From the NCBI GenBank assembly GCA_017480565.1, contig JAFVAL010000068.1, forward strand, positions 1 to 50,439: a DNA stretch of 50,439 nt, given 5' to 3'. Under the pieces are notes generated by a model. The model did no database searches. It was given only the letters and a program-made list of their open reading frames with translations, and was not told the origin of the DNA. The translations under genes were made by a program, and so were the position numbers. Within the stretch, counting starts at the first letter, position 1. Every line of letters begins with the position of its first letter. Of the stretch, positions 9,323-24,861 are shown one piece after another. Origin of the DNA: Lachnospiraceae bacterium. GTDB lineage: Bacteria; Bacillota; Clostridia; Lachnospirales; Lachnospiraceae.

Positions 9323-9324
9323 CT

Positions 9325-10968: not shown

Positions 10969-12700
10969 AAGCCTTTTCCTCCCATCCGTAGTTTTCCAGT
11001 GCTTCTTGGGTTTCCCACAAATGTGCATACACGCCGTGCTTTTTCAGCAGTTCCTCATGAGTTCCACACTCCACGGCCGATCCATTCTCCATCACGTAAA
11101 TGCAATCCACACCGGTTACATTTGCGAGACGATGTGTGATCATGATCACGGTCTTCTTTCTCGCAATCTTTCGGATCTGCGCAAGAATCGCCTCTTCACT
11201 TTCGATATCAATGTTGCTTGTCGCCTCATCAAAGATATAAATCGGTGAGTCGTGCAGCATCGCTCGTGCCAGCGCAAGACGTTGTTTTTGTCCGCCGGAG
11301 AGATTCCCGGCATTCTCTAAAAGCACCGTATCAAGCCCATTTTCAAGCCTTAATTCTTCCATAAGCGAACAGTCAGAAAGCACCTGCCACAGCCTCTCAT
11401 CCGTCGCCTTAGGATCCGCCAAAAGCAGGTTCTCGCGAACCGTTCCTTTAAAGAACACTGACCCGAAACCGATGTAAGTGATGCTCTTCATCAGGCTCTC
11501 TTCAGACACCTCGCGGATATCCTTCCCATCGATTGTAAGCACGCCACTTCCCACTGAATTGCGTGCCATGATCAGCGACGCGATCGTGGATTTGCCGCTC
11601 CCAGACTCGCCGACGATTCCGACAAAACTTCCCTGTGGAATCGAAAGATCAATCCCGTGCAGGATCTCTCGCTCTCCGTCGTAGGAGAAATGTACATCCT
11701 GCAGCTCGATATCCCCGCTGCGCACAGTTTCGCGCTTCCCCTCAGGCTCATCCTCCGAGAGAAATGCAAAGATCTTGTCGCTTGCAGCCATACCGTTCAT
11801 CGCGACGTGAAAGTAACTTCCAAGCCTTCTCATCGGCAGGAAGAAGTCTGCGGAGAGCAGAATCATAAAGACCACGTTAAACAGTCCAAGATCGCCATTT
11901 ACGAATGCTTTTGTGGCAAGCAGAATTCCCAGCGCAGCACCGCCATAGGCAACGAAATCCATGATCGTTACGGAGTTTAACTGCATCGTGAGTACCGCCA
12001 TTGTCACCTTGCGGAAATGCTCGGATTCCTCGTTCATTTCGACATTCTTCTGCGCATCCGCCTGGTAGATCTTCAGCGTCGTCATGCCCTGCAGATTCTC
12101 AAGAAATGTACTTCCAAGCTTTGTGTACTGCCCCCAGTACTTTGAAAGGATCCTCTTTGCAATCTTCTGCACCATCATGATCGCACCGGGAATCAGCGGA
12201 ACACAGATCAAAAGGATCGCAGCAACCTTCCAGGAACCGCCAAATCCAAAGAGGAAAAACAAGGCGATCGGCGCCATAAATGCATAGAAAAACTGCGGTA
12301 CATATTGCCCGAAATAGCTCTCCAGCTGATCCACGCCTTCCACGGATTCCTGCACTAGCGCTGCCGTTGTGACATGCTCCCGGTACGTCGTCCCCAGCCG
12401 CAGAAGCTTCCCATAGATCTTCTCCCGCATCACACGCTTGACCGTGCGCGAAGCAAGATAGCTCATCCGCGTCGCATATTTCGTCGTGAAAAAGCGCAAA
12501 ACAACCGTTACCAGGATCACGCCAAGCGGTGCGACGAGGTCACTCAAACCCCATGCCTTGTCGTAAAACTGTTGCACGGCATAGGCGATCGTCACAATCA
12601 TCGCCACGTTGAAGCACATCTCCAGAAACTGCAAAATGATGTTCCCGACGATATACTTTTTACTCTCCGGACACATCTGCATCAAACGCTTATCAAACAT
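10952..12700 (-). CDS. Heterodimeric ABC exporter, first half (CydD-like)
   Basis: A 582-residue membrane ABC protein: transmembrane domain in about the first 320 residues, then an ATPase with Walker A GIVGESGSGKST, signature LSGGQKQR and Walker B IYIFDEATSN. Fused transmembrane and ATPase domains mark an exporter. The start region MFDKRLMQMCPESKKYI resembles CydD-like proteins. The ribosome binding site (GGGG, 9 nt before the ATG) is modest. It lies 37 bp after the flavin reductase gene and may be co-transcribed with it, and it is coupled to the second half-transporter and an alpha/beta hydrolase. Confidence 0.9.
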   Translation of the reverse strand: MFDKRLMQMCPESKKYIVGNIILQFLEMCFNVAMIVTIAYAVQQFYDKAWGLSDLVAPLGVILVTVVLRFFTTKYATRMSYLASRTVKRVMREKIYGKLLRLGTTYREHVTTAALVQESVEGVDQLESYFGQYVPQFFYAFMAPIALFFLFGFGGSWKVAAILLICVPLIPGAIMMVQKIAKRILSKYWGQYTKLGSTFLENLQGMTTLKIYQADAQKNVEMNEESEHFRKVTMAVLTMQLNSVTIMDFVAYGGAALGILLATKAFVNGDLGLFNVVFMILLSADFFLPMRRLGSYFHVAMNGMAASDKIFAFLSEDEPEGKRETVRSGDIELQDVHFSYDGEREILHGIDLSIPQGSFVGIVGESGSGKSTIASLIMARNSVGSGVLTIDGKDIREVSEESLMKSITYIGFGSVFFKGTVRENLLLADPKATDERLWQVLSDCSLMEELRLENGLDTVLLENAGNLSGGQKQRLALARAMLHDSPIYIFDEATSNIDIESEEAILAQIRKIARKKTVIMITHRLANVTGVDCIYVMENGSAVECGTHEELLKKHGVYAHLWETQEALENYGWEEKAYEKAE

Positions 12701-12737: not shown

Positions 12738-13367
12738 TTATTTGCCATCCATGAAGTTCGTAAACGCTTCTTTCTCCATCACAGGACATCCATAAGCCGC
12801 CTTTGCATCCGCAAATGCCTTCATCATAAATGACATATTTCTCGCCAGATTGCGCATCGTCTGTAGTCCTTCCAGATCTTTTTTCACATCCTCCGCGGAA
12901 AAACCATGCACCTGATTCCAGTAGGTGCTCGAAGCCACCGGCATCCCACTGATCGTGAAATACTTATTCAAAACATCGAAGCTCGCGGTATTACCTCCTC
13001 TTCTGCAGCTTACCACCGCAGCACCAACCTTCATGTGTTTTGAGAAATGCGTGCTATAGAACAACCGATCCATAAATGAAAGAATCGTTCCATTGGGCGA
13101 GCCGTAGTATACAGGGCTGCCAACTACTAGGCCATCAGCCGCTTCCAACTTCGGTGCGACCTCATTTACCAAGTCATCGTTAAAAACGCATCTTCCATTC
13201 TTGGAACAAAAGCCACAGGAGACACATCCATGGATCGCCTTATTGCCCACATGGATCAGCTCGGTTTCCACGCCTTCTTCCTGGAATACCTTGATCATTT
13301 CCTCCAATGCAGTCGCCGTACATCCATGCGGATGCGGACTTCCGTTTAACAAAATCACACGTGCCAT
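12738..13367 (-). CDS. NADPH-dependent FMN reductase / flavodoxin-fold oxidoreductase
   Basis: A 209-residue protein of the iron-sulfur flavoprotein/FMN reductase family. The FMN-binding loop LNGSPHPHGCTATAL is at the N-terminus. A four-cysteine cluster CVSCGFCSKNGRC follows near residues 48-60, and GSPVYYGSP contributes to flavin binding. The cysteines fit a [4Fe-4S]-like site as in the ISF family, although spacing is not compact enough to be sure. The start at ATG 13367 is supported by GGAGGA seven bases before; an in-frame ATG 18 bp upstream lacks a site. Likely an electron-transfer reductase for anaerobic metabolism; the partner is unknown. Confidence 0.88.
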   Translation of the reverse strand: MARVILLNGSPHPHGCTATALEEMIKVFQEEGVETELIHVGNKAIHGCVSCGFCSKNGRCVFNDDLVNEVAPKLEAADGLVVGSPVYYGSPNGTILSFMDRLFYSTHFSKHMKVGAAVVSCRRGGNTASFDVLNKYFTISGMPVASSTYWNQVHGFSAEDVKKDLEGLQTMRNLARNMSFMMKAFADAKAAYGCPVMEKEAFTNFMDGK

Positions 13368-13412
13368 TGTTTTATCCTCCTTCATACTATAGCTGAGCCT
13401 CTAATCTCATCC

Positions 13413-13727
13413 TCACTCTGCATCTTCTTCCATCGTCTCCAGCAAAAAGCTCACCGGACGAAAGCCATCATTGCAGGAAATCATCGCAGACTTCGGATTC
13501 TTCATCCATCCGTCATAAATGTTTTCGCCACCGTGTGCCAGCGTCATAACAAAAGGCGAGATCGTATCCCACGCGCTTCCGCAAAAGCCCTCTGGTCGTT
13601 CCCATCCATTTGCGATAAAGGTTTGACCAAGCTGCATCATACATGCGTGCTCAATCGGATTTTCATACTCCTCCATGAGATCATCATATCTGGCAATCTT
13701 TTTCACTGTAATCCTAACTTTTTTCAT
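13413..13727 (-). CDS. TIGR04076-family small protein
   Basis: A 104-residue protein matching my memory of the TIGR04076 family: a start like MKKVRITVKK, the central PEGFCGSAWDTI block with Cys and Trp, then LAHGG and a terminal CNDGFRPVSF block. The family function is unknown and the conserved cysteines suggest a metal or redox role (inference). It has its own strong promoter (13772-13800) and a GGAGAG site upstream of ATG 13727. The FMN reductase gene follows 45 bp downstream, so the two may be one operon. Confidence 0.8.
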   Translation of the reverse strand: MKKVRITVKKIARYDDLMEEYENPIEHACMMQLGQTFIANGWERPEGFCGSAWDTISPFVMTLAHGGENIYDGWMKNPKSAMISCNDGFRPVSFLLETMEEDAE

Positions 13728-13811: not shown

Positions 13812-14306
13812 TCACTGCAAAATCAGACACATGATCCCAGAGAGAATCGCTGCAATCACAGCCATTCCGACGGTTCCCGTGATCCATTTCTGCCGCTTAT
13901 CCTTCGTGCTGATATAAGGCCTCAGGTCCTCTGTCCCAGGGATGATCCATGCCTTGGTATGCCCCACCCAATAGTCATCAATCAGAAAACGATCAATCAG
14001 ATTCATAATCGACAGAATGATAAACATTTGCCAAAAGCTCGGAAGAAACCCCCTCGCACCATTCACTAAATACGTGCAAATGAGTACATATGCAATGTAG
14101 CTTGGCACGCACACTCCTTTGAAAAGCATGCTGCGCTTCTTAATTGCCTCCGCAGTCGTCAAACCGAGTTCCACCACGCGTTTCTGAACCTTTGGATCAT
14201 AAAGATGAACCATTCCGATCGCACCGTTTTTGATGCCAATCGCACAGATTAGATATAGCAGAAAGCCCAGTCCGAGGCCTTCAAGAATCAGTATCAATGG
14301 AAGCAT
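13812..14306 (-). CDS. Membrane protein, PGTED family (paralogue of 19910-20416)
   Basis: A 164-residue protein with about four hydrophobic segments (near 3-25, 62-80, 88-105, 138-160). I do not recognise a named family. It is a clear paralogue of the protein at 19910-20416: both share a basic stretch after the first helix, NG(A/S)RxFL followed by F, a second helix ending in a D-rich turn, a W/L-x-x-H-(T/S)-K motif and a strictly kept IPGTED near residue 125. The start at 14306 has GGAGGGG five bases before. It follows the isoprenylcysteine-methyltransferase-like gene by 47 bp and belongs to the same operon, driven by the element at 14872-15003. Confidence 0.8.
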   Translation of the reverse strand: MLPLILILEGLGLGFLLYLICAIGIKNGAIGMVHLYDPKVQKRVVELGLTTAEAIKKRSMLFKGVCVPSYIAYVLICTYLVNGARGFLPSFWQMFIILSIMNLIDRFLIDDYWVGHTKAWIIPGTEDLRPYISTKDKRQKWITGTVGMAVIAAILSGIMCLILQ

Positions 14307-14353: not shown

Positions 14354-14845
14354 TTATTTCTTTTTCGGCAGCCAAGGCAGGCACCGATTGACTCGTCTGC
14401 AGTATTCTTCATATTCCTTGCCATACAGCTCTTTTAGCCACTTCTCCTCCGTCGCCTTCATCAGCACAGTCATGAAAAGCCAGTAGACAAATGGCAGAAT
14501 GAAAAACCAGACATTACTGACAATCAAGATCACGCCTGTGCAGACGATCATTGCGGCAGAATAAATCGGATTTCGCACAAATGCGTACGCCCCGGTTGTC
14601 ACAAGGTGATTCTCCTTAATACCGTCATCGATCTTTGAGATTGGAACTGCATAAATCCACAATGCGATGCCTGATGCAATCAGAAGAATCCCCAAGATCA
14701 TCAGAATCGTGTGCGCTCCCTCAAGCCTTCCTGATGAAAAGATCGGATGATTTCGCAGCAAAACAGCGGCCAAAGTCAGTGCCGCAATTACATAAACATA
14801 AATCGGACCCACGCCATAGATAGGGAGATGTTCTCCTTCTTTCAT
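14354..14845 (-). CDS. Isoprenylcysteine carboxyl methyltransferase (ICMT/PEMT) family membrane protein
   Basis: A 163-residue integral membrane protein with four to five helices and the ICMT/PEMT hallmark: LVTTGAYAFVRNPIYSA (G-x-Y-x-x-x-R-(N/H)-P), then the C-terminal EEKWLKELYGKEYEEYCRRVNRCLP. Family members methylate small lipids or isoprenylcysteine using S-adenosylmethionine; the bacterial substrate is usually unknown. The start is set at ATG 14845 because GGAGGAAGGG lies nine bases before it; a GTG 21 bp upstream overlaps that site. It is the first gene behind the shared operator/leader element 14872-15003. Confidence 0.87.
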   Translation of the reverse strand: MKEGEHLPIYGVGPIYVYVIAALTLAAVLLRNHPIFSSGRLEGAHTILMILGILLIASGIALWIYAVPISKIDDGIKENHLVTTGAYAFVRNPIYSAAMIVCTGVILIVSNVWFFILPFVYWLFMTVLMKATEEKWLKELYGKEYEEYCRRVNRCLPWLPKKK

Positions 14846-14871: not shown

Positions 14872-15003
14872 ATTAGACATTTCTAACTCAGCCATAACAA
14901 AAAGCCCATCACACAACCGTCCATCTCGGAACCAATGTATGATGGGCAAAAACACAAGTTAGTTCAGCCTAATTATATTATCAAAATGCGAAATAGATTG
15001 CAA
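14872..15003 (-). promoter_or_regulatory. Shared promoter-operator-leader element, copy 1
   Basis: Read on the minus strand: -35 TTGCAA (14998-15003), 17 bp, -10 TAATAT (14975-14980), one base, then an operator written on the plus strand as GTTAG-N6-CTAAT (14958-14973). This is followed by a leader hairpin with 8-bp stem GCCCATCA/TGATGGGC (14904-14911 and 14940-14947) with a T-run after it. A second palindrome ATTAG-N6-CTAAC (14872-14887) ends 12 bp before the GGAGG site. The same order of parts recurs at 20454-20591 and 24751-24861. Whether a repressor reads the palindromes, or the RNA folds alternatively, cannot be told from sequence alone. Confidence 0.7.
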
Positions 15004-15045
15004 GGGGGGTGGTGTGCGTCTCTATAATTCTCCCTTAGCAACATT

Positions 15046-15159
15046 CTACTCCGATCTCCTTTGAAGATACTTCTTCAGCTCATCCTCTTTGTTACATCTC
15101 CTTGCATATGCGATTCTCTTTGCGACAAATTCAGGGTTCCAAACGATCAATGTGTTCAT
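15046..15159 (-). CDS. 37-residue charged small protein
   Basis: A short ORF starting MNTLIVWNPEFVAKRIAYAR and ending with a basic, lysine- and arginine-rich tail (KKYLQRRSE). An AAGGAG site ten bases upstream of ATG 15159 supports translation. It is the last gene of the AT-rich nuclease-helicase cassette, 63 bp after the PD-(D/E)XK protein. No family is recognised. It could be a small accessory or antitoxin-like partner (inference). Confidence 0.5.
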   Translation of the reverse strand: MNTLIVWNPEFVAKRIAYARRCNKEDELKKYLQRRSE

Positions 15160-15222
15160 GATAAATGTGCTCCTTTCGATACTCCTGTTCTTTTACTTAA
15201 TACTATGAAATAGCCATATCCA

Positions 15223-15687
15223 TCAATGAAACCGTGTGAAATCCTCTGCAATGTATTTCTTATACCGATCTTTACAATACTCTTTCCTCAAACCAGTCTC
15301 TTTGTCAATTCTGTTTCCATTAAACCAAATGCTACGTTTGCCAGCATTTTTCCCAGTTCTGTTGGTAACACATTCTTTTAAAAATTCTTCTGAAGAAAGG
15401 ATCCACATGGTTTCTAATCGCTCTGAGTAGAACACAAAATAGAAATTTGGAGTAAGGTCATGGGTAACTGCTGCAAATAAAGCAGCGTCCCCATCCGTAA
15501 CCTCGGTTGATCTTGCTTTAATCTGAATTTTTATAAATGTCCCATCTTCCTTTTTTATCACAGCATCAACCCCGTGATCATCAACCAATGGTAAATAGAC
15601 ATCTAGCCCTTCCATCAACATCTTCCCGATAAGATTGTACTCCATGCGTTTGCCAAATCCGGCAGAATGACGAAATGTGATTCCCAT
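15223..15687 (-). CDS. PD-(D/E)XK nuclease-like protein
   Basis: A 154-residue protein. The nuclease core is readable: a helix with KRMEYNLIGKMLMEGLDVYLP, then VDDHGVDAVIKKEDGTFIKIQIKARS. The Asp of GVDA and the Gln-x-Lys of IQIKA fit the PD-(D/E)XK metal-binding pattern, with Gln in the position often held by Glu. It resembles small restriction-like or intron-homing-like nucleases (PDDEXK_5 type). The GGAG site nine bases before ATG 15687 is good. It lies 65 bp downstream of the nuclease-helicase gene in AT-rich DNA, suggesting a defence cassette (inference). Confidence 0.65.
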   Translation of the reverse strand: MGITFRHSAGFGKRMEYNLIGKMLMEGLDVYLPLVDDHGVDAVIKKEDGTFIKIQIKARSTEVTDGDAALFAAVTHDLTPNFYFVFYSERLETMWILSSEEFLKECVTNRTGKNAGKRSIWFNGNRIDKETGLRKEYCKDRYKKYIAEDFTRFH

Positions 15688-15752
15688 TTTCTAGTGCTCC
15701 ATTATCTGTAATGTTAAACTTTTCTGATACAATTTGCTCCATAACAAGCGCA

Positions 15753-17891
15753 TTATATCTCATCTATTCCTAAGCTTCTCAAATATTGATAAGTACTGTC
15801 ATAAAATTCTGGCAAACGTGTACTATCTTCCCAAAAACCGCTTTGAGTTTTGTTTGAATTCCCCTCAGGCACACAGATTACCATGCCTGCTCTGGCACGT
15901 GTAAGTAACACACGATAGGCATTCAACATGTATTTCTTTTTTTCTTGCTTACTTTCGGTGTCTCCGGTCACTTCATTCCATCTTGTATTGCCATTAAAAG
16001 TGAAATACCGCCACTTGCCTTCATCATATCTCATATCTGCATCCCAAAGCAGACAAGTATAGTCAAGCTCTAAACCTTGAACTTGGATTTCAGTTGCAGC
16101 GTCTTCCAAATAATTCGACGATCTTATATCTGTTTTGTCTTCCAGAAACCAGTGAACTGCATTCTCATCTCCAGAAGGAAGTATTTGTATCGCCAATGGT
16201 TTAAATCTCGCAGCTTCTTTTGTAACCAAAACTCCTGTGCGCTCCGTGCCTCGCACTTTTCCATGTAGCCACTTTCTTGCTTTAGCCATGTCACGAGTTA
16301 AAACAATGGGATAATTATCCTTAATCTCACTATAGATCTTAGATGCAGTCTCATCAAAAGTTAACAGTGCATGTACAAATGCAGAAAGTTTCTCCGCACG
16401 ATATGAGCGAAGTGATACAGCCAGATGTAAACATTCTGAGTAAACAACATTGGGTTTATTTTTTAAAAGTTCGTTGACTTTACCTTCAGCATACTCTGCA
16501 TCTGTCAATTTGGGTGAGATATAAACGTCCCAATGAGGGAACTTTTGGTTTAATGCAATGATCCATTCAGAGATACCTGCTTCGCCGGTATTAATTTCTT
16601 GGCCTCCTCCAACAAGACAGACAATAGTAGCCCAATCTTCTCTTTGGTCTAGTGACCAGATCAAAAATGCAGCTTCAGACATAGGGAAATTTGGCACCTT
16701 TAGCTTGTTACCATACGTTCCACCCCGTTTCAGATAATCAGCCAGTCTTTTATGTGTCCATGACCTTTGCGCTTCGTCAAAGATAGCAACATGTTCCACT
16801 TCACCAAAGCCAGCTTTCTCCATTTTGATGGCTTTCTCTGGATCAATCTCAAGAGTCTCATTTTCCACAGGATTCTTGATCTTTGCCAGCATATTATCAC
16901 GATACCGATGAATCATCTGAATTGATTTACTGACTTCTCGCCTAGAATCCGAAAGCTTCTTTTGCTCGTTTCTGTTAATGCATTTTTTGTAATTATCCTT
17001 CGCAAGTGCTTCAGTTAAAACCGCAACAAGCGGGCCATTTCCTGACAGATAAACAGCTCCTTCATCTTCAACTGGGACGTCTCCTCCCTGATAAGTTTGT
17101 TTAATTGCCACATCAAGCCCAACGAGAGTCTTACCTGCACCTGGCACTCCTGTAACGAAACAAATACTCTTCCTCTGTTCTTCTTTACACTTTTTGATTA
17201 CCTGAAGAATGTATCCAATTGTTCTATCGGTATAAACCTTGTCAGCTTCATGGCGAGTGATATCTTCTACAGAATGATTCTCATATAAAGATTTGGCGGC
17301 TTCGATGATAGTTGGAGTTGGCGCATATGGACTTATAATCCAGTTATGATCTACAGGTGTTTCATTAGGGAATGTTTTCACAACAGCAGTGATCAGTTCG
17401 TAAAGATGTTCTTTTCCTGTTACCAAGGGGTTCACTACCCTGTCATCGTACACAGACATCTGTATAACAGAGGAAGCCTCCTGATAATTAGTAGCAACCA
17501 AGATTGGTACAATCACCTTTTCTTCACTGAATTTATGGAAATTCTTTAGATCTAATGCATAGTCTAATACTTGGTCTACATCAGATTCCAAGATTCTAGA
17601 TTCTCCAACCTTGAATTCAATACAGAAGACAATGCCTTTGAATAATAATACAACATCAATTCTTTTACCGAGACGTGGAATATCATACTCAAATATTACA
17701 CGGGCATCATCTTCGTCAAATCGGGATATTACGTCTTGCATGATAGATATCTCGTTTTTCCACGCTTCTAAAGTGGTTGTGCGCGCTTCACCATGATATT
17801 TGTCTACTAGCTTTCCTAAAACCGACATGCCTGTTTCTTCCAAAAAGTGAGTATAACTGTTCTCGTATAAGCATCGAGGATTATCGCTCAT
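15753..17891 (-). CDS. PD-(D/E)XK nuclease fused to Schlafen-group-3-type helicase (DUF2075)
   Basis: A 712-residue protein. The N-terminal domain has Asp79 (KRIDVVLL), Glu92-x-Lys94 (CIEFKVG) and a Q-x-x-x-Y helix (DQVLDYAL), the RecB-like PD-(D/E)XK pattern. The rest is a superfamily-1-like helicase: Walker A GVPGAGKT near residue 245, Walker B IFDEAQRSW, and VLLTRARAGMVICVPE as the final helicase motif. This matches the DUF2075/SLFN-g3 helicase family, seen in defence islands. The start was moved to ATG 17891 (MSDNPRC) because AAAGGA lies nine bases before it. The gene is clearly more AT-rich than its neighbours, which fits horizontal transfer. A DNA-processing defence role is inference. 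Confidence 0.83.
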   Translation of the reverse strand: MSDNPRCLYENSYTHFLEETGMSVLGKLVDKYHGEARTTTLEAWKNEISIMQDVISRFDEDDARVIFEYDIPRLGKRIDVVLLFKGIVFCIEFKVGESRILESDVDQVLDYALDLKNFHKFSEEKVIVPILVATNYQEASSVIQMSVYDDRVVNPLVTGKEHLYELITAVVKTFPNETPVDHNWIISPYAPTPTIIEAAKSLYENHSVEDITRHEADKVYTDRTIGYILQVIKKCKEEQRKSICFVTGVPGAGKTLVGLDVAIKQTYQGGDVPVEDEGAVYLSGNGPLVAVLTEALAKDNYKKCINRNEQKKLSDSRREVSKSIQMIHRYRDNMLAKIKNPVENETLEIDPEKAIKMEKAGFGEVEHVAIFDEAQRSWTHKRLADYLKRGGTYGNKLKVPNFPMSEAAFLIWSLDQREDWATIVCLVGGGQEINTGEAGISEWIIALNQKFPHWDVYISPKLTDAEYAEGKVNELLKNKPNVVYSECLHLAVSLRSYRAEKLSAFVHALLTFDETASKIYSEIKDNYPIVLTRDMAKARKWLHGKVRGTERTGVLVTKEAARFKPLAIQILPSGDENAVHWFLEDKTDIRSSNYLEDAATEIQVQGLELDYTCLLWDADMRYDEGKWRYFTFNGNTRWNEVTGDTESKQEKKKYMLNAYRVLLTRARAGMVICVPEGNSNKTQSGFWEDSTRLPEFYDSTYQYLRSLGIDEI

Positions 17892-18021
17892 AATTGTGTT
17901 TCCTTTTGAATCCGTTATAGTCATGAGAAAGATTAGGGAAATCTTTCCTGTCATTCGCATGCTTTTATTAATCAATATTACTACAAAACTCCAATACGTT
18001 CAATGAATATCCGTGACCCAT

Positions 18022-18068
18022 GCGTCAGTTGTCGCTTCTGTCCATCACCTTCGTCCCCCCACAAGAAA
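18022..18068 (-). repeat. Post-terminator repeat, copy 1
   Basis: In transcript sense this reads GTGGGGGGACGAAGG, TGATGGACAGAAGC and GACAACTGACGC directly after a terminator T-run. Related copies follow terminators at 20620-20692 and 21893-21953. All three are in the same orientation. Confidence 0.65.
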
Positions 18069-18101
18069 ACCGCCGAAAATCATCAGTTCGATTTTCAGCG
18101 G
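18065..18101 (-). terminator. Terminator after the hydrolase operon
   Basis: CCGCTGAAAATC pairs with GATTTTCGGCGG (one wobble) and is followed in transcript sense by TTTTC. It lies about 125 bp after the hydrolase stop at 18228. The space between, 18102-18227, holds nothing else I can recognise. Confidence 0.7.
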
Positions 18102-18227
18102 CTTTTCATAAGATTCACTTATGTAATTTGTCCTGTACTGCCATTCAAATTCTACTCTGGCTTTTCTTACATTGCCATCAGCTTCTCGCAAAATTTCTAA
18201 ATCTAGCTTTCACCCCAGAAGAATTTC

Positions 18228-19172
18228 CTAAAGTCTCCTGTGGGATATTGCTTTACTAGTTGAATCCATATTTGCAATCAGCTCAATCTGTTTATAATAA
18301 TCTCTCTTACTTTCGGGAAACACAGGGGTACAGGCATAACAGTGCATCATGCCAGGTTCCTTGTGCATGTGAAGCACTGCGCCATCCCGCCTATAGGCCT
18401 TCTGGATCGCATCTGATACGCAGGCGCAGGCTTCCTCCGCGTAGAAGATATACGTTTCCGGAGCATGACGGAAATCCATTTTGTCAGGATACAACGCATA
18501 ATCCGGTGTTTGAGGATCAGCCCGCATCACTCCATCCATCATGAGCTTGAACGAGCCTTCTGGAACCATCAGATCGACCTTTTCATACTCTTCGGCCAGC
18601 GTCCACTCCTCCTTTGTCTCGGGGAATGCAAAGGGAGAATTCATAATCAGGAGGCGCGGCATCTCTACCTCATTTCCATTCCTGTTTATCCATGTAATGA
18701 GCTGCATCGCCAGAAAGCCTCCATATGAGCCGCCGACCACAGCAATGTTCCCAGCACCGTATTTGTTCTCAACAGCCTTATAAAACTCGTAGATGAGGTC
18801 AATTGTTTCTACAACAGGCACTTCCGTGAAAGGCGGATAAATAGGGTAAAAAACATCTGCACTGGTTTGTTTTCCATACCCACGTGCTATGGACACCTCT
18901 GGTTTCCAGGCATCCTTATTGCCGCCGCCATGCAGAAATAGAAGCGCCTTTTTGTGGGAAGACACTTTCTGCCTGATCATAAGCATCGGACATCCTCCGA
19001 TGTGATCAGTGCTGTATATCGCCTTATGATCTGAGGGCTCCTTGTAGGGATTCTTTTGATTGTATATTCTTGCCTTAGATATTTCACTGTCTATGTCACC
19101 GGGTTTAGGGAACAATCCCAATCGCTTTATGAAACGCAGCACAGAAACCGCTGCTTTTGCACTAAGGCTCAT
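18228..19172 (-). CDS. Alpha/beta hydrolase of the HSL (HGGG) type
   Basis: A 314-residue hydrolase of the hormone-sensitive-lipase-like family: oxyanion motif LFLHGGG, nucleophile elbow GGSYGG, and a C-terminal His in the MMHCY segment. The substrate is probably a short acyl ester. A hydrophobic N-terminal stretch (SLSAKAAVSVLRFIKRL) is amphipathic, not a clear signal peptide. The ATG at 19172 directly follows the stop of the SRPBCC gene, so both are translated from one message that begins at the promoter near 20590. Confidence 0.85.
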   Translation of the reverse strand: MSLSAKAAVSVLRFIKRLGLFPKPGDIDSEISKARIYNQKNPYKEPSDHKAIYSTDHIGGCPMLMIRQKVSSHKKALLFLHGGGNKDAWKPEVSIARGYGKQTSADVFYPIYPPFTEVPVVETIDLIYEFYKAVENKYGAGNIAVVGGSYGGFLAMQLITWINRNGNEVEMPRLLIMNSPFAFPETKEEWTLAEEYEKVDLMVPEGSFKLMMDGVMRADPQTPDYALYPDKMDFRHAPETYIFYAEEACACVSDAIQKAYRRDGAVLHMHKEPGMMHCYACTPVFPESKRDYYKQIELIANMDSTSKAISHRRL

Positions 19173-19607
19173 TTAACACACCCCCAGAAGCCTGATCCAT
19201 CTCCGCTGCCTGTGCGCATAGAAGGCCTGCGCCCACAGCCAGATGAATACGGTTTTCCAACCCGCTTTGATTTCCACCTCATCGGTGTATTCAGTCTGAC
19301 CGTTCCTTTCCAGTAGGGTGATCCGATGATCCCAGACCTGAACATGTTCATTGTGTTCGCGGCTCTGTATGACATCCATATCAAAACGCTCTATGCGAAT
19401 CACATGGGTACCGAATGGGATGAAACCGAAAAGCTTGAAGCGATAGGAAGTTGTACTCCCAATTTGCCATGCAGCACTTTTTTGCCCATCCACAGGCGTG
19501 AAGGTCGCATATGGGGCTGCGATATACTGCAGCGTTTCAAGCCGCTGGAGTCTTGAAAAGACTTCCTGCCGTGGGGCAGGAAATAATGATGTCCTTCTTA
19601 CGATCAT
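19173..19607 (-). CDS. SRPBCC (START-like) family protein
   Basis: A 144-residue protein of the polyketide-cyclase/START-like ligand-binding fold. The start has a typical PAPRQEVFSRLQRLETLQYIAAPY, followed by a WQIGSTTSYRFKLFGFIP strand block and HVIRIERFD, and a C-terminal helix. Members bind hydrophobic ligands or act as cyclases; the ligand is unknown. It abuts the downstream hydrolase gene with no gap. The gap to the next gene upstream (19608-19770) carries no ORF I can support. Confidence 0.72.
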   Translation of the reverse strand: MIVRRTSLFPAPRQEVFSRLQRLETLQYIAAPYATFTPVDGQKSAAWQIGSTTSYRFKLFGFIPFGTHVIRIERFDMDVIQSREHNEHVQVWDHRITLLERNGQTEYTDEVEIKAGWKTVFIWLWAQAFYAHRQRRWIRLLGVC

Positions 19608-19770
19608 AAGTGTTACCTTCTTACATCGGGTTCTTTACCTTGCGGCTGTTCACTATTGTATCAAAACTGCTGCTTCTTCATCTGATCCAATAGATCACCA
19701 GATTAATATAAACACAACCTTCAAACAGACTCTTTTCTCTCGGTATAAAGCAAAGATGTTTTCAAACTTG

Positions 19771-19870
19771 CTACATTGCAGGATGGATGAGCCCGCTTGT
19801 GGAAATGAGAAGATAGACGGCGAGCCACAGGATCATGGCGATCAAGATGCTGCGGACAGGTTTTTTTCAT
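19771..19870 (-). pseudogene. Small single-helix membrane peptide, frame broken at an A7 run
   Basis: An ATG at 19870 has a good GAGG site eight bases upstream and is followed by a run of seven A. In the zero frame it gives a hydrophilic, unlikely peptide. With six A instead, the frame reads a 32-residue transmembrane peptide containing VRSILIAMILWLAVYLLIST and ending at TAG 19771. Either one A was gained (mutation or sequencing error) or the ribosome/polymerase slips there. It sits between the PGTED membrane protein and the SRPBCC gene of the same operon. Confidence 0.5.
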
Positions 19871-19909
19871 TGTGACAACCTCGTTTCTTTTGTTATAGTT
19901 CCCCTTTAT

Positions 19910-20416
19910 TCAGCCTGCGATCCATGAAATCACCTGCACGACAAATCCAATCAGCAGGCATACAGGAAGCCCGATCAGCATTCCGACACAGGATCCCTTT
20001 ATATGGTACCCGTAATCATGATAGACCTCGGTCATATCCTCCGTTCCGGGTAAAATATATGTCTTCGAATGACAGAGCCAAAGAATATCTATCACGATGG
20101 CGTCATACCAGTCTACAATCAGCCACAGTCCATAGCTTACGAGAAAGCCGCTTAGAAATGAACGCGAGCCATTGACAAAATACACAACAACTCCGAGCAA
20201 AATACCCAGCACGATTGCTGCGGGAAACTTTTTCTTCACTCTTTCCAGTGTGCTTGGATTCTTCTTGTCTGGGATCTTGCCCAATTCAATGTATCGTTCC
20301 ACGATGGCAGGATGATAGCCGTATACCTTCCTGGCGGGCTCTTGTCTCACCTGCGACAAGATAGCCAAATGAAACAGCACGCAAAGCGCCACAGCTTCGA
20401 TCACAAAAATTATCAC
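19910..20416 (-). CDS. Membrane protein, PGTED family (paralogue of 13812-14306)
   Basis: A 168-residue protein with four hydrophobic segments, GTG start at 20416 and GGAGG nine bases before. It shares the block NGSRSFLSGF, the D-rich turn, CHSKTYILPGTED and overall length with the protein at 13812-14306, so the two are paralogues at moderate identity. No named domain is recognised. It is the first gene of the operon (membrane protein - small peptide - SRPBCC - hydrolase) controlled by the second copy of the shared element. Confidence 0.78.
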   Translation of the reverse strand: MIIFVIEAVALCVLFHLAILSQVRQEPARKVYGYHPAIVERYIELGKIPDKKNPSTLERVKKKFPAAIVLGILLGVVVYFVNGSRSFLSGFLVSYGLWLIVDWYDAIVIDILWLCHSKTYILPGTEDMTEVYHDYGYHIKGSCVGMLIGLPVCLLIGFVVQVISWIAG

Positions 20417-20453
20417 GATTCAACACCTCCGAGATGAATACTATTGAATATAT

Positions 20454-20591
20454 GTTAGTTTAATCTAACCGACATTCATTAAGAATGCCCATCAACAGCC
20501 GTCCATCGGGTGAACCCGGATCACTGTATGATGGGCGATAGTTCGGTTAGTCAGCACTTACTACAATAACACAAGAAACTTGTTTTTTCAA
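20454..20591 (-). promoter_or_regulatory. Shared promoter-operator-leader element, copy 2
   Basis: Minus strand: -35 TTGAAA (20586-20591), 17 bp, -10 TATTGT (20563-20568), one base, then operator GTTAG-N6-CTTAC (20546-20561, plus-strand writing), leader hairpin GCCCATCA/TGATGGGC (20487-20494 and 20529-20536) with inner ACAG/CTGT and CGGG/CCCG steps, then palindrome GTTAG-N6-CTAAC (20454-20469). CTAACCGA (20465-20472) is also complementary to TCGGTTAG (20543-20550), so the transcript could pair across the hairpin or within the second palindrome, not both. Confidence 0.75.
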
Positions 20592-20619
20592 GAGAAGCCC
20601 TCGGCTCAAAGGCATGACC

Positions 20620-20692
20620 GCGTCAGTTGTCGCTTCTATCCATCCCTTTCATCCCCCACAAAAAAAGTGCCAACGGTTTTCTCGTCAGCACT
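20620..20692 (-). repeat. Post-terminator repeat copy 2 with terminator of the ORF6N gene
   Basis: The right part is a strong terminator: a 10-bp stem AGTGCTGACG/CGTTGGCACT followed by seven T in transcript sense. The left part is the G-rich post-terminator repeat ending in GACAACTGACGC. About 60 bp (20633-20692) recur almost unchanged at 21893-21953, so the ORF6N gene lies between direct repeats. Confidence 0.75.
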
Positions 20693-20780
20693 GGTAGAAT
20701 AAAGATAACATCAGTAAGAAATTGGCCGCCTCGATTTTTCACGTTTTTTATTCTCAGCTATTACTCCTATCCTCTTAAAT

Positions 20781-21782
20781 TTAGTTTAGTTTCAATGCCG
20801 GTTGTAGAAGAAGCTCTTCAATCATTGGATAGTAAAGTCTTGTATTGTCAGCTTGCATTATCGTAGTAATCTTATTACCCGCATCTTTTGATGATGCACC
20901 ACAGTGAAATATTTTCTCCGACCGACATTTATAGTCTATAATAATATATCGATCATGAAACTTTCCACCCGTATGCCGGAAATCGAGTCTGATACTAGGG
21001 TACTCCGTCTCAAACGCATGAAATTCCGATAGGCGAAAAATATTCCTCACGTTGTCGCTGAAAATTATAATATCTACATTCGCAGGGACGCTTTTCAGCA
21101 TCAGCAGAGTCTTAGGTCCAATATAGTTATCCACAATATAAAGCTTCTTTTTTGCCTTGCTGTAAATATCCGCATATGCCGCATCAGCCTCAAACGTTTG
21201 ACCAGCATATATTACATATTCAATCCCTTTATCTGGCAGACTGAAGCTCTGTATAACTTTGGTCAGATCCTCTCTAGTTATCATTTTTTCTTTAATTTCA
21301 CTGATATGTCTTGTGTTCTCATCTATCTGTAACGATAACTTTTCAATATAGGGTTGCCCTGACAATAATGGATCCTGGCTTAAATAATCCTTCATCTGTT
21401 TAAATGCACGAATCAAAGCCTTACTCTGTCGTATTGCAAGATTCCCTTTTAGTACAGTCATCAGCATGTACACACCACTTTCAGTAAAACACCAGGGCAG
21501 ATATTTTACATTGCTACCACGACTTTCTCTGTTCAAGGTCAAATTTTTTGACCTTGAAAGTTCCTCAACCTCATCCCAGGTCAACTGAAACCGAAAATCA
21601 TCTTCGAATTTTTCAATATTGTTTTTCACCTGCTGATTAAAGGCCTTGGTTGTATATCCGTATATCTCTGCAAGATCTGATGCAAGCATAACTTTCTGAC
21701 CTCTTATCATATAAATCTTTGCCTTCAAAGATTCAACTGTAATCTCTGACGGAACAAGTTCGTTAGGTCTATTCTCGCTCAT
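20781..21782 (-). CDS. ORF6N-domain protein with C-terminal phospholipase-D-like domain
   Basis: A 333-residue protein. The N-terminal ORF6N (Bro/KilA-like, phage antirepressor family) domain spans about residues 12-130, with KIYMIRGQKVMLASDLAEIYGY and CFTESGVYMLMTVLKG. A coiled linker (LSLQIDENTRHISEIKEKM) follows. The C-terminal domain has IVDNYIGPKTLLML and GKFHDRYIIID; the HxR-x4-D resembles one half of a phospholipase D HKD motif with Arg for Lys. Such proteins are common on phages and mobile islands. The gene is AT-rich, monocistronic and bracketed by direct repeats carrying terminators. DNA binding plus a nuclease-like domain suggests a regulatory or exclusion role (inference). Confidence 0.83.
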   Translation of the reverse strand: MSENRPNELVPSEITVESLKAKIYMIRGQKVMLASDLAEIYGYTTKAFNQQVKNNIEKFEDDFRFQLTWDEVEELSRSKNLTLNRESRGSNVKYLPWCFTESGVYMLMTVLKGNLAIRQSKALIRAFKQMKDYLSQDPLLSGQPYIEKLSLQIDENTRHISEIKEKMITREDLTKVIQSFSLPDKGIEYVIYAGQTFEADAAYADIYSKAKKKLYIVDNYIGPKTLLMLKSVPANVDIIIFSDNVRNIFRLSEFHAFETEYPSIRLDFRHTGGKFHDRYIIIDYKCRSEKIFHCGASSKDAGNKITTIMQADNTRLYYPMIEELLLQPALKLN

Positions 21783-21892
21783 ATATTTTCTCCTTTTTAT
21801 ATCATTGCTATATCACTGTCATTCTCACGCTTTTTTACTCCCCAATAACACCACATGTATTCAATACTTTCAATGATAATCTGTAACTCCTT

Positions 21893-21953
21893 CTTCTGTC
21901 CATCCCCTTCATCCCCCCACAAAAAAAGTGCCAACGATTTTCTCGTCAGCACT
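21893..21953 (-). repeat. Post-terminator repeat copy 3 with terminator of the nitroreductase gene
   Basis: AGTGCTGACG and CGTTGGCACT form the terminator stem just after the nitroreductase stop (21960), followed by seven T and the G-rich repeat. It is a near-identical direct repeat of 20633-20692. Confidence 0.78.
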
Positions 21954-21959
21954 CTCTTC

Positions 21960-22487
21960 TCACATCACCTTCACGGTCTCTTCGATTGGCTTCCTCTCGT
22001 TATGCAGATGGCTGGGCTTTGACCTCTCTGACGGATATCCCATCGAGAACATCATCACCGGAATATGATTCTTCGGAAGATCCAACACCTCTGCCACTTG
22101 CTTGCTGTCAAATCCCAGCAGCCAGCAGGTATGAACACAGAGTTCTTCCGCTTCATACATCATGGTCGTAGCCACGATCGTCGCGTCCTGTTCACCAGAA
22201 TTATAATTATCGTAGCAACGATCGCTAGGATTTCTCCAGACAGTCTCTGTATCATAGCAAATTAACATCATGAGCGGTGCATTAAAATGTGAGACGCGAA
22301 CCGTTCTCAGCTTCTTCAGTGCCTCTTCACTCTGAATCACATAAATGCGCTGCGGCTGTAAGTTACATGCGGTAGGCGAGATGCGTCCTGCCTCCAGAAT
22401 CTTGTCGATAATCTCCTGCTCTACAGGTCTCTCAGTGTCAAAACGTCGCTCCGAAAAGCGATTGTTTGCCAGTTCCAAAAATGTCAT
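21960..22487 (-). CDS. Nitroreductase family protein
   Basis: A 175-residue FMN-dependent nitroreductase. The start block FLELANNRFSERRFD, the RISPTACNLQPQRIYVI block and the C-terminal VMMFSMGYPSER are characteristic. It is a paralogue of the nitroreductase at 35105-35623. The start is placed at ATG 22487, which has GGAGG eight bases before; an ATG 15 bp upstream overlaps that site. It has its own palindromic promoter region (22513-22532) and terminator, so it is a single-gene unit. Confidence 0.9.
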   Translation of the reverse strand: MTFLELANNRFSERRFDTERPVEQEIIDKILEAGRISPTACNLQPQRIYVIQSEEALKKLRTVRVSHFNAPLMMLICYDTETVWRNPSDRCYDNYNSGEQDATIVATTMMYEAEELCVHTCWLLGFDSKQVAEVLDLPKNHIPVMMFSMGYPSERSKPSHLHNERKPIEETVKVM

Positions 22488-22512
22488 CTCTATTTCCTCC
22501 ATACTTTATGTC

Positions 22513-22532
22513 ATGATATTTGATTATATCAT
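22513..22532 (-). promoter_or_regulatory. Palindromic operator over the nitroreductase -10
   Basis: ATGATAT-TTGATT-ATATCAT is a perfect 7-bp inverted repeat. It overlaps a minus-strand TATAAT box (22523-22528), 36 bp upstream of the nitroreductase start, so a repressor site is likely. No regulator gene is adjacent. Confidence 0.55.
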
Positions 22533-22558
22533 ACCGCAAGGCGGCAGAAAAGATGATT

Positions 22559-23179
22559 TTATAACAGAACCAGCAGTCCGATAAACATGATCGCCCCTGC
22601 CCAGTTTCCGCTGCCGCCCACGCGCGTCGGCATCAGGACAAGCATTAACGCAGTCGTGTTAAAAATGCAGGCCCATCTTGGCAGAGGTGTCAGCCCAGAG
22701 ACGACAGCTACGAAAAATGCAATGCCAAAGAGCAGAAATCCTGCATAGCAGACAAACATCGTAACAGAAGTCTTTTGAAAAAGCTCCGTGATGATATTCA
22801 GAGCCTCTTCTGTGCGTCCGAGCCGGACATACAGCCATTCCGGAATACCGCACAGAATATGATGTGCAATGCCAAATGTGAAGATCACACCAACCGCAAG
22901 CAACATCAGATTTGCATAGATCTCGGAAAACGACCGCATCCACAGCGCCAGTGCAAGATATCCGAAGAACATCATGCACATGGCAAGGCAACCAAGCATC
23001 ATAGCGAGAATGGCGTTTTGCAGGGGCATCCCTCGAAAGATCTCCGAAAGCTTTTTGTTATCCTTCATGTAATCAAACTTGAACCGCCCGTTTGGCATGT
23101 ACGTCATCAAACAATCACACACGCCGCAGAGCAGATGTCCGATCAGCGCAATCAGAAAAATCCATTTCATCATCGTCAT
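22559..23179 (-). CDS. Integral membrane protein (DUF6796-like)
   Basis: A 206-residue protein with about six hydrophobic segments and a short N-terminal GHLLCGVCDCLMTYMPNG motif comparable to GIGDFLLGYA in the operon's first gene, so both may belong to one family (DUF6796-like, from memory). No catalytic motif is seen. It is the third gene of the operon 24685-22559, nine bp after the ATC-hydrolase-like gene. Confidence 0.7.
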   Translation of the reverse strand: MTMMKWIFLIALIGHLLCGVCDCLMTYMPNGRFKFDYMKDNKKLSEIFRGMPLQNAILAMMLGCLAMCMMFFGYLALALWMRSFSEIYANLMLLAVGVIFTFGIAHHILCGIPEWLYVRLGRTEEALNIITELFQKTSVTMFVCYAGFLLFGIAFFVAVVSGLTPLPRWACIFNTTALMLVLMPTRVGGSGNWAGAIMFIGLLVLL

Positions 23180-23188
23180 GCTCTCTCC

Positions 23189-23902
23189 TTACTTCTTTTT
23201 ACTCAGTAATAATCCATTTTCATCCTTCACAAGCTCATACTCGGCCGCCTGAGGGCTTTGATCACCGATGATGTAGTAATCGCAGCGATCCGACGTAATA
23301 CACGTCCCTTCCCGGATCAGCGTCGCATGAAGCTTCTGCATCGCAAAATGGTCGCAGTTACACATCACCGGAAGAATCGATTCCATGTGGTGGCGTTTCG
23401 CAAACTCTGCATTCGGACATTGCGTAAAATGATAGCAGATCGCTCCGCTCTCTCTGTCATAGGAAAACCCTCCCATGCGAAACGACTCTGGCAATGTCTT
23501 GCTCTCCTTTTCCCGCGTATCACTGGTCTTCTTAAAGATCTTGCTTGCCAACCGATGATCCAGCTTACGATTCAGATTGAACACCTTCCCAAGCGCATCA
23601 AAACTGCCCATAAAGCAATCGTACACATCCTGCTGAATCTCCTCGATCGGTGGCTTATCCGGCACAACATCGTACCATGCGAAAATCAAGATCGGATCAT
23701 AGATACTCACGGTGATCTTCGCGCTGCCAAGCGCAGGCTCATCCTTCAGAAATTCCGCGTATCTAAGCTGTACCTTCTCCCAAAGCTCCTCCGCAGTCTT
23801 CTCGTCATAGTAGCGATGCAAGAGCTTTTGAACACATTTCTTCGCTTTGTCCGTGTAAATCACATGCTTTGTAAGATCGATAGGCAAATCTTTTTCTTTC
23901 AT
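23189..23902 (-). CDS. L-2-amino-thiazoline-4-carboxylic acid hydrolase-like protein
   Basis: A 237-residue cytoplasmic protein. The C-terminal part has FTQCPNAEFAKRHHMESILPVMCNCDH, HATLIREGTCITSDRCDYYIIGD; this array of Cys, His and Asp is the hallmark of the ATC-hydrolase-like family (PF14196), named after an enzyme of L-cysteine synthesis from thiazoline, though most members are uncharacterised. The start is placed at ATG 23902 (MKEKDLP) because GAGGAAAA precedes it. It sits between two membrane protein genes in one operon, suggesting a job tied to a small membrane system (inference). Confidence 0.82.
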   Translation of the reverse strand: MKEKDLPIDLTKHVIYTDKAKKCVQKLLHRYYDEKTAEELWEKVQLRYAEFLKDEPALGSAKITVSIYDPILIFAWYDVVPDKPPIEEIQQDVYDCFMGSFDALGKVFNLNRKLDHRLASKIFKKTSDTREKESKTLPESFRMGGFSYDRESGAICYHFTQCPNAEFAKRHHMESILPVMCNCDHFAMQKLHATLIREGTCITSDRCDYYIIGDQSPQAAEYELVKDENGLLLSKKK

Positions 23903-23944
23903 TTTCTTTTCCTCTATGAATTGGATCAAAATATCCTCAGTCTT

Positions 23945-24685
23945 TTATGCAATCTGATGTTCTTCTTTGAATCGGTCAAATGTCTCCTGATCCGGCAAGG
24001 CAAAAAGCAAACCGCCAAACATGAAGGCATTTCCGAAGCTCAAAAACATCGTCCCAATGCCTGCACCAAGTGCATTTCCTGAACCAAGAAGCATCGAGAT
24101 CACAAGCGCCGGGATCGCACCAACAATCAGGTTATACCATTTCGCGCTTCTCGGATAAGGTGTATACCCTTTGTCAAATGCCTTAAATTGCACGACAATC
24201 ATCGGAACCCAGAAGATGATCAGCAAAACATAAATCGGCTGAGAAAAGCCCCAAAACAGGCGATCGGCGACGAGATTTGCGGTTGCTTCATCCAATGAAA
24301 GAAGGTACTTATAGACAAGACTCAGGATGCCTATGTTCATATGTGTACCCACCGGAGCTAGCCAGATATAGCCAAAAATCCCTGCCCGGTAAATATGTGC
24401 GTACTTCGGCGCTACATCCGCCATCAGCCGATAGATCGCGAAAAATGCAAGACCCTCTAAAAAGATTCCAAGAAAACCCAAGAGGCCGCCAGCAATCATT
24501 TGCCCATCCGTGAGGTTTGGCGCACCGGATAGAAAGCTCGTTGCCAAGGTACTCGTCGGGATCTCCTTCGCATAACCAAGTAGAAAATCTCCGATCCCTG
24601 TAAGCACGGAAGCAAACAGTCCGATCGCAAGAAGCTTTTTTATCCTTGCCCGGTCCAGGTTATTATCAATTCCAATCGTATTCAT
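23945..24685 (-). CDS. Integral membrane protein (DUF6796-like), first gene of operon
   Basis: A 246-residue protein with seven or so hydrophobic segments, beginning LLAIGLFASVLTGIGDFLLGYA. No functional motif is recognised beyond similarity in layout to the protein at 22559-23179. ATG 24685 is chosen; its site (GAAGGGAA) is distant and weak, and a GTG 33 bp upstream is also open but has no site. It is the first gene behind the third copy of the shared promoter-operator-leader element. Confidence 0.72.
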   Translation of the reverse strand: MNTIGIDNNLDRARIKKLLAIGLFASVLTGIGDFLLGYAKEIPTSTLATSFLSGAPNLTDGQMIAGGLLGFLGIFLEGLAFFAIYRLMADVAPKYAHIYRAGIFGYIWLAPVGTHMNIGILSLVYKYLLSLDEATANLVADRLFWGFSQPIYVLLIIFWVPMIVVQFKAFDKGYTPYPRSAKWYNLIVGAIPALVISMLLGSGNALGAGIGTMFLSFGNAFMFGGLLFALPDQETFDRFKEEHQIA

Positions 24686-24750
24686 TACTTTACCCGCGTT
24701 CCCTTCTACTCTGTTCACGAATCAGAATGCACATCTGTCATCTCGTTCAT

Positions 24751-24861
24751 GTTAGGTATTGCTAACCCGAGGTCAAGATGAAAGCCCGCTATGCAGCCAT
24801 ACTGTATAGCGGACTGTTAGTCATCACTTACTATTATACTTCGCGCAGGTTACATTTTCAA
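24751..24861 (-). promoter_or_regulatory. Shared promoter-operator-leader element, copy 3
   Basis: Minus strand: -35 TTGAAA (24856-24861), 17 bp, -10 TATAAT (24833-24838), one base, operator GTTAG-N6-CTTAC (24816-24831, plus-strand writing), leader hairpin CCGCTAT/ATAGCGG (24786-24792 and 24806-24812), then palindrome GTTAG-N6-CTAAC (24751-24766). Spacing of promoter to operator is identical to copies 1 and 2, while the hairpin is shorter. The stretch 24862-24904 before the MerR stop shows nothing further. Confidence 0.78.

Follow-up and report, generated by a model that had tools for sequence, protein, structure and literature searches.

The closest described relatives of the system reported here are iron-responsive repressors of the DtxR family. 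EqbA of Streptococcus equi ICESe2 is a DtxR-like protein without an SH3 domain that controls siderophore genes; its promoter binding depends on a palindrome and is enhanced by Fe2+, and the operator as printed, at eqbB, contains GTTAGATGTATCTAAC, which includes an exact GTTAG-N6-CTAAC (PMC3672683). The actinobacterial IdeR/DtxR regulators likewise act by iron-activated regulation, and the single-dimer consensus of IdeR, TTAGGNNNNCCTAA, has a TTAG-N6-CTAA core of the same spacing (PMC8464063). Here we describe putative operators of this type in a 50,439-nt stretch of a Lachnospiraceae genome (GenBank assembly GCA_017480565.1, contig JAFVAL010000068.1; hereafter the window), where three operons are each preceded by a promoter and a pair of such palindromes, which we call boxes, with a hairpin between them. 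Neither system is described with this layout: the EqbA promoter is printed with one palindrome, and the accessible text describes no hairpin or second operator (PMC3672683), whereas IdeR has an SH3 domain, typical actinobacterial sites are 19-bp two-dimer sites, and no operator-coupled terminator is mentioned in the accessible part of that source (PMC8464063).

The region before the second box bears likeness to a different set of systems. Terminators of RNA polymerase I (Pol I) combine an RNA hairpin, a T-rich tract and a DNA-bound roadblock protein (Reb1, Nsi1 or TTF1). Pol I stopped by Reb1 or Nsi1 releases its RNA efficiently only when a hairpin lies upstream; the polymerase halts 20 nt beyond the hairpin, 15 bp short of the site, and backtracks, whereas one stopped 8 bp after the hairpin releases rapidly with no backtracking (PMC12366685). 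Those terminators are eukaryotic, lie at gene ends and are not metal-gated (PMC12366685), whereas the hairpins described here stop some 17 bp ahead of box 2, lie at the starts of genes and would face a metal-gated roadblock. Bacterial repressors such as CcpA, CodY, PurR, LexA and LacI also stop elongating polymerase from sites downstream of the start, but release there is by Mfd or possibly Rho, and the accessible text describes no hairpin and T-tract before the site (PMC10310618). Riboswitches and attenuators share a leader hairpin and T-tract ahead of an operon; here, in contrast, neither a conserved aptamer nor an alternative fold was seen and the hairpin sequence varies freely. A riboswitch or known leader RNA was rejected as an explanation, there being no Rfam match in the window elements at the gathering score or in 13 loci at an E-value of 0.5. 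A literature search, with most subscription papers beyond reach, found no case in bacteria of an operator that follows a hairpin and T-tract at about 17 bp.

An earlier, sequence-only reading of the window had proposed that the three operons share one promoter-operator architecture. All six palindromes lie where it had placed them, as three promoter-linked pairs on the minus strand (elements E1, E2 and E3; Table 1), and the elements have a common order: a TTGMAA -35 hexamer, a 17-bp spacer, a -10 hexamer, a single base (A in each), a 16-bp box (box 1), a hairpin, a second box (box 2) and the first gene. The spacing between -10 and box 1 is therefore identical, as had been claimed, and the second palindrome, said to lie 65-92 bp downstream, follows at 86, 92 and 65 bp in E1, E2 and E3, respectively, by starts and by centres. 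The proposal that the operons answer to one signal also stands, in that they probably form one co-regulated set. What had been overlooked is the hairpin and T-tract linked to the second palindrome; the hairpin is present in all three elements and ends, counted from its last G-C pair, 16 or 17 nt before box 2. Within the window, exactly these six sites match GTTAGN6CTAAC with at most one mismatch, where 0.58 were expected, and none of 100 shuffled sequences reached six. At two mismatches the scan returned 7 sites against 11.7 expected, a threshold that is uninformative.

Boxes recur in relatives, both at loci of homologous genes and across the order, which answers the earlier concern for conservation of the operators. 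An exact pair with a gap of 30-60 bp occurs in 30 of 295 genomes of the order, from five families, and in none with the backwards control pattern; the genome of the window is absent from this set because each of its own pairs has a mismatch. A looser pattern was found in 56 of 150 genomes of the family (one per genus), with control columns, left unsummed, of the same order. We also took loci carrying a relative of the membrane protein at 13812-14306 (best 80 of 123), mostly on contigs from Clostridia of the rumen and gut. Exact boxes in these 80 loci number 37, boxes number 68 when one mismatch is allowed, and there are seven pairs; no other half-site permutation gave more than one pair, exact box counts having been made for 8 of the 30 permutations. 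A box lies somewhere in 40 of these 80 loci (25 among the 31 closest, 2 among the following 28 and 13 among the last 21), such that this gene family and the box go together within the closer branch but seldom do in one more distant. Two of the contigs, from Treponema (L190 and L191), carry a relative of the membrane protein with a one-mismatch box, which may reflect transfer of the module between phyla. At L120, L128, L131 and L133 the boxes are separated by 116-321 bp; a T-run precedes box 2, and a small reading frame seems to lie in the interval.

The genes behind the boxes point to iron limitation. Among 60 proteins encoded downstream of pairs (25 of 35 families listed), FeoA accounts for 14, DUF3793 for 12, DUF2325 for 8, FecCD and HMA for 3 each, and Trep_Strep and NEAT for 2 each; Fur, flavodoxin, a NifH-like protein, ATC_hydrolase and Peripla_BP_2 appear once each, and enolase is also present. 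The own genome comprises 2.78 Mb in 76 contigs. Its boxes, of which some have a mismatch at one position, precede feoA-feoA and feoB, genes for a FeoB-associated Cys-rich protein and for a ferredoxin adjoining a dtxR gene, a DUF6796 gene and a methyltransferase/metallo-beta-lactamase-fold gene, and they occur at four places in a cluster on contig C42. A box pair with a hairpin between precedes DUF2325-DUF3793-flavodoxin. In both relatives and the own genome, then, boxes stand before genes for ferrous and siderophore iron uptake and for iron sparing. At L043 a Fur-family gene lies behind a box pair with a hairpin, and Fur may for that reason sit below DtxR in that genus.

The six window boxes, all within one mismatch of GTTAGN6CTAAC, fit the TTAG-N6-CTAA palindrome of the DtxR/IdeR type, and their owner is very probably a DtxR-type repressor. 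The sequence-only reading had seen no obvious TetR-like owner in the window; there is indeed no owner inside it, and the TetR family is itself disfavoured, the evidence pointing instead to a DtxR-family metal repressor encoded elsewhere in the genome. A single gene scores above the PF01325 cut-off (C54:975-1355, 5e-13), coding for a 126-aa protein that falls below the NCBIfam cut-offs for MntR (97.6 bits against 153) and DtxR (33.5 against 290) and is thus, by sequence, a DtxR-superfamily member outside the named DtxR and MntR equivalogs. With the DtxR protein of a relative (L095) as query, homologues were found in 93 of 100 genomes of the family, one per genus. The 30 best of these loci, picked blind to boxes apart from the query's origin, contain 26 exact boxes, spread over 14 loci; when one mismatch is allowed, the count is 43 boxes over 18 loci. 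Other half-site permutations have at most one exact site each. At seven loci from six genera (L032, L033, L070, L072, L092, L095 and L096), the boxes separate dtxR from a controlled gene encoded on the other strand. The small DtxR reading frames, at 124-130 aa, are too short for an SH3 domain, and DACxxEH is present in all nine rows (eight distinct genes) found by the motif E[M/D]YL. The regulator is in this respect well supported: operator and regulator are, as judged from sequence, a further member of the DtxR/EqbA kind, and the C54 protein would be expected to bind the boxes.

To describe the region between paired boxes we assembled 66 gaps. Besides those of the window, relatives' loci gave 35 (from 34 of 50 loci, L078 twice; 15 had no pair within limits, and L049, with a gap of 20, was left out), 26 of 30 exact-pair loci were used (L103 and L109 being repeats, L091 and L111 having no assignable gene), and the own C42 pair, with a gap of 109, was added by hand. 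One pair was kept at loci with several (L043, L063 and L066), L097 was kept by its promoter, no reading frame being within reach, and close relatives (L095/L096, L104/L106 and L088/L102) were counted separately. L051, an enolase locus with a promoter between the boxes, is in the 66 gaps and not in the set of 65. Orientation was assigned by downstream gene and promoter with the gap sequence in view, hence not blind. The downstream-protein counts above come from 60 of the 65 frames, leaving out the three window genes, the own C42 gene and the L078 repeat.

By sequence, these gaps contain what defines an intrinsic terminator, a GC-rich hairpin followed directly by a T-rich tract. A strong GC-closed hairpin was found in 42 of the 66 gaps, compared with a mean of 14.7 and a maximum of 23 in 200 dinucleotide-shuffled sets. 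These totals are lowered by the simple finder used, which missed the E1 and E2 hairpins on account of their internal loops and chose spurious ones instead. As at Pol I roadblocks, the hairpin keeps a set distance from the predicted protein site: for 30 of the 42 strong hairpins, 15-18 nt separate the hairpin end from box 2, and for 21 of them exactly 17 nt, whereas shuffled sets gave a mean of 1.56 such hairpins and a maximum of 6. On the other side, these 30 hairpins begin anywhere from 0 to 77 nt after box 1. Gap lengths range from 30 to 109 with no fixed value. When 65 gaps were aligned on box 2 alone, C or G prevailed at -21 to -18 and T at -17 to -9 (peak 0.83), ending sharply at -8. The tract is polar: the T fraction at -17 to -10 of box 2 is 0.68 (n = 65), whereas before box 1 it is 0.38 in sense and 0.30 on the opposite strand, and 1000 gap shuffles gave 0.31, with 0.37 as the highest value. 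In a second set of 74 exact-box flanks, from the homologue loci and not chosen for pairs, 20% had at least 0.75 T at -16 to -9 and 1-9% did so at the other nine offsets, near-duplicate loci not being collapsed. Across seven window-type elements, including the misaligned L132 (alignment A3), 6 of 12 stem pairs show two-sided changes, a number reached by one of 500 shuffles. Promoter-like hexamers scoring at least 10 of 12 lie near box 1 in 43 of 65 gaps and near box 2 in one; a second promoter at box 2, suggested by the resemblance of the T-tract end to TTGACA, was rejected on that count. In feoA promoters such as L033 and L070, the first box fills the 17-bp spacer, the second forms the hairpin and the third follows 17 nt on.

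From this arrangement we infer a two-step mechanism. The boxes would be single-dimer operators of a small, SH3-less DtxR-family repressor of the EqbA kind that binds DNA most likely when loaded with ferrous iron. Under iron-replete conditions, a dimer on box 1 would cover the expected start site and block initiation. A polymerase that escaped would transcribe a leader of roughly 60-85 nt to box 2 (in the window elements, from the predicted start site), comprising the hairpin and a T-rich tract of about 9 nt, and would next run up against another dimer, on box 2, which begins 8-9 bp beyond the tract. With the RNA end at -9, the T-tract coincides with a 9-bp RNA:DNA hybrid, the hairpin abuts it and box 2 is just ahead; on paper, this is how an intrinsic terminator poised for release would look when faced with an obstacle. 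Halted by the box 2 dimer in that position, the complex would release its RNA at a terminator too weak to act alone. Hairpin and T-tract would thus provide release and the iron-loaded repressor the stop; at low iron the dimers would leave, the polymerase would read through and the operon would be transcribed. The weakness of the terminator is suggested by the positions immediately after the hairpin, the first four being all T in 6 of 28 cases here and in 38 of 77 T-rich hairpins after stop codons, a comparison in which the hairpin thresholds were unequal (17 against 12). We give somewhat better than even chances to this reading, repression at box 1 combined with a weak terminator completed by box 2-bound repressor as roadblock; if the owner is of the DtxR type, roadblock-assisted termination becomes reasonably probable. 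The wider claim is evenly balanced: that at least five families of one order have a repressor-gated intrinsic terminator, with a metal repressor about 17 bp past a weak hairpin, and place both initiation and early elongation under iron control.

Much of the same evidence can be read differently. The boxes could be bound by the same iron repressor and the hairpin be an ordinary leaky terminator, one that caps leakage into the leader or makes a short iron-regulated RNA, with box 2 a separate operator and the spacing without a role. Hairpin and T-tract do resemble an intrinsic terminator, and short leader RNAs would end at the tract. A terminator unlinked to box 2 would, however, need no fixed distance, and it is with box 2, not box 1, that the hairpin end keeps its spacing; the T-tract stands in the same place even where there is no clear hairpin (L098-L101), and the first four positions are less T-rich than behind stop codons, within the limits of that comparison. 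We regard this as unlikely. It is less probable still that the hairpin is a 5' leader stabiliser or RNA-level element beside an incidental T-tract, with box 2 serving simply as a roadblock or as a further operator. Hairpins differ widely in sequence yet keep their structure, as a generic stabiliser would, and Rfam offers no match in the window elements or the 13 loci, but a stabiliser has no need of a T-tract or of constant spacing from a DNA site. Paired boxes and the dyad between them might instead serve cooperativity at the DNA level, through several dimers, bending or looping, and have no bearing on transcription, as could be supposed from feoA promoters in which the hairpin is itself a box (L033, L070 and L072). 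The variable gap lengths argue against DNA phasing and the T-tract is polar although the box is palindromic, which leaves this very unlikely.

Two alternatives concern the regulator instead. A Pfam TetR gene in the C42 cluster, C42:3313-3921, has a one-mismatch box 5' of it, with box-like sites in its own promoter and boxes near its neighbour, and a TetR-like reading frame also lies beside L073. Yet boxes adjoin dtxR and stand at feo and Fur genes across the order, and they match an operator already shown to bind a DtxR-like protein (PMC3672683); ownership by a TetR-family protein, for which no systematic search of linkage was made, is very improbable. A DtxR-like regulator sensing manganese or another metal is suggested by the C54 protein, in which Asp replaces Met and overall similarity is greater to MntR. 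The box-linked targets are nevertheless iron uptake and iron-sparing genes, and the Cys-x-x-Glu-His motif is kept, whose Cys is tied to the Fe2+ response in EqbA (PMC3672683), and we consider a sensor of manganese or another metal highly improbable.

Several observations weigh against the reading that we favour, a box 2-bound iron repressor completing a weak terminator. The finder detected no strong hairpin in 24 of the 66 gaps, 12 of the 42 strong hairpins end elsewhere (0-14, 19 or 27-31 nt before box 2), and L098-L101 have a T-tract with no or only a weak hairpin. At unselected exact boxes in the 80 homologue loci, five flanks have a hairpin at 15-19 nt, within the range of shuffles (mean 1.9, maximum 6), and the more distant homologue branch (L147-L174) is mostly without boxes, as counted above. 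The distance itself is a difficulty. A polymerase blocked by EcoRI stops 14 bp short of the site. Pol I at its roadblock stops 15 bp short (PMC12366685). A stop 14-15 bp before box 2 might leave too little RNA outside the polymerase for the hairpin to close. For the model to work, the polymerase would have to halt about 8-10 bp from the box or push into a dimer that is weakly bound. As to the operator, single boxes are not enriched in the own genome, where exact boxes number 9 and sites with no more than one mismatch number 30, against 61 for the backwards pattern; because the raw count is below its control, single-box counts alone prove nothing, and the signal is in pairs, positions and neighbouring genes. 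The earlier worry that the palindrome might occur at random frequency is to this extent justified for single near-matches in the own genome and unfounded for the window sites and pairs. The own dtxR locus has a one-mismatch box only, and the L095 query came from a box-chosen locus, so its 30 best relatives lean to box-linked copies. Lastly, although Cys-x-x-Glu-His is kept, the C54 protein has Asp where seven relatives have Met in E[M/D]YL, and it is nearer MntR overall, with 2h09 as best PDB hit; these two features leave some room for manganese, and iron as the sensed metal would follow mainly from the target genes. EqbA is likewise nearer MntR (33%) than IdeR (28%), and its Cys has been linked to the Fe2+ response (PMC3672683).

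Table 1. Promoter-operator elements and operon genes of the window (positions in the 50,439-nt stretch)
Feature	Position	Strand	Basis
E1 -35, TTGCAA	14998..15003	-	sequence
E1 -10, TAATAT, 17-bp spacer	14975..14980	-	sequence
E1 box 1, promoter-proximal operator (predicted)	14958..14973	-	box scan
E1 hairpin, ends 16 nt before box 2	14904..14947	-	RNAfold z -4.5; two-sided helix changes
E1 T-rich tract 3' of hairpin	14895..14903	-	sequence
E1 box 2, downstream operator (predicted)	14872..14887	-	box scan
E2 -35, TTGAAA	20586..20591	-	sequence
E2 -10, TATTGT, 17-bp spacer	20563..20568	-	sequence
E2 box 1	20546..20561	-	box scan
E2 hairpin, ends 17 nt before box 2	20487..20536	-	RNAfold z -3.5; two-sided helix changes
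E2 box 2	20454..20469	-	box scan
E3 -35, TTGAAA	24856..24861	-	sequence
E3 -10, TATAAT, 17-bp spacer	24833..24838	-	sequence
E3 box 1	24816..24831	-	box scan
E3 hairpin, ends 17 nt before box 2; stem sequence unlike E1 and E2	24784..24814	-	RNAfold z -3.0
E3 box 2	24751..24766	-	box scan
Operon 1: PEMT/ICMT-like membrane methyltransferase	14354..14845	-	Pfam
Operon 1: membrane protein by sequence, no family match	13812..14306	-	paralogue of 19910-20416 and contig C42 12808-13299
Operon 1: TIGR04076 protein	13413..13727	-	family match
Operon 1 (inferred member): NADPH-dependent FMN reductase	12738..13385	-	Pfam
Operon 1 (inferred member): fused ATP-binding cassette (ABC) half-transporter	10952..12700	-	family matches
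Operon 1 (inferred member): second ABC half-transporter	9325..11028	-	family matches
Operon 1 (inferred member): alpha/beta hydrolase	8519..9328	-	Pfam
Operon 2: membrane protein by sequence, no family match	19910..20416	-	paralogue of 13812-14306
Operon 2: protein earlier called SRPBCC	19173..19607	-	no Pfam/NCBIfam match at E 0.001
Operon 2: alpha/beta hydrolase	18228..19172	-	Pfam
Operon 3: DUF6796 protein	23945..24685	-	Pfam
Operon 3: ATC_hydrolase protein	23189..23929	-	Pfam
Operon 3: second DUF6796 protein	22559..23179	-	Pfam
Operon 3 (possible member): nitroreductase	21960..22502	-	same strand and close spacing only

Of the products guessed in the sequence-only reading, the ICMT-like methyltransferase, the ATC hydrolase and the hydrolase were recovered by Pfam, and the SRPBCC protein has no family match. 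ABC half-transporter pairs, DUF6796 pairs, ATC_hydrolase proteins and paralogous membrane proteins are common to the window operons and the box-linked cluster at C42:1-20000 (L017). That cluster encodes a TetR protein, a fused ABC pair, an energy-coupling factor (ECF)-type transporter (Trep_Strep (MptD-like) S component, CbiQ and double ATPase), two DUF6796 proteins, an ApbA-like protein, an S-adenosylmethionine (SAM) methyltransferase and two ATC_hydrolase proteins, and it looks like siderophore uptake and processing of the equibactin/yersiniabactin kind. It shares the fused ABC pair and a further transporter with the genes controlled by EqbA, among which EqbK and EqbL are fused permease-ATPase proteins 28-30% identical to YbtP and YbtQ (PMC3672683). 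Our guess is that these genes serve uptake and breakdown of foreign thiazoline siderophores, which fits the ATC_hydrolase name.

Other features lie around the three operons. Between operons 1 and 2, 15223-17975 encodes a weak PD-(D/E)XK match and a Schlafen-group-3 helicase and has the look of an inserted defence or mobile element. A phage-type gene for an ORF6N/Bro-N protein (20781-21782) separates operons 2 and 3. Three similar intergenic stretches, at about 18010-18110, 20610-20690 and 21880-21960 and built around TCTRTCCATC...CCCCCACAARAAAA, look like dispersed repeats with a terminator. A MerR/TipAS-type regulator (24905-25630) is encoded directly upstream of E3 on the same strand, and the window ends inside a 23S rRNA gene (50298-50439, minus strand).

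A literature search found no description of an iron regulator or operator for this bacterial group. The analysis proposes both for this large group, many members of which are known from samples of rumen and gut, and it places the uncharacterised DUF2325, DUF3793, DUF6796 and ATC_hydrolase proteins, along with the paralogous membrane proteins, in the context of iron limitation. If box 2 does complete the terminator, these bacteria would regulate termination by a DNA-bound repressor instead of an RNA ligand, in a geometry akin to that of Pol I termination.

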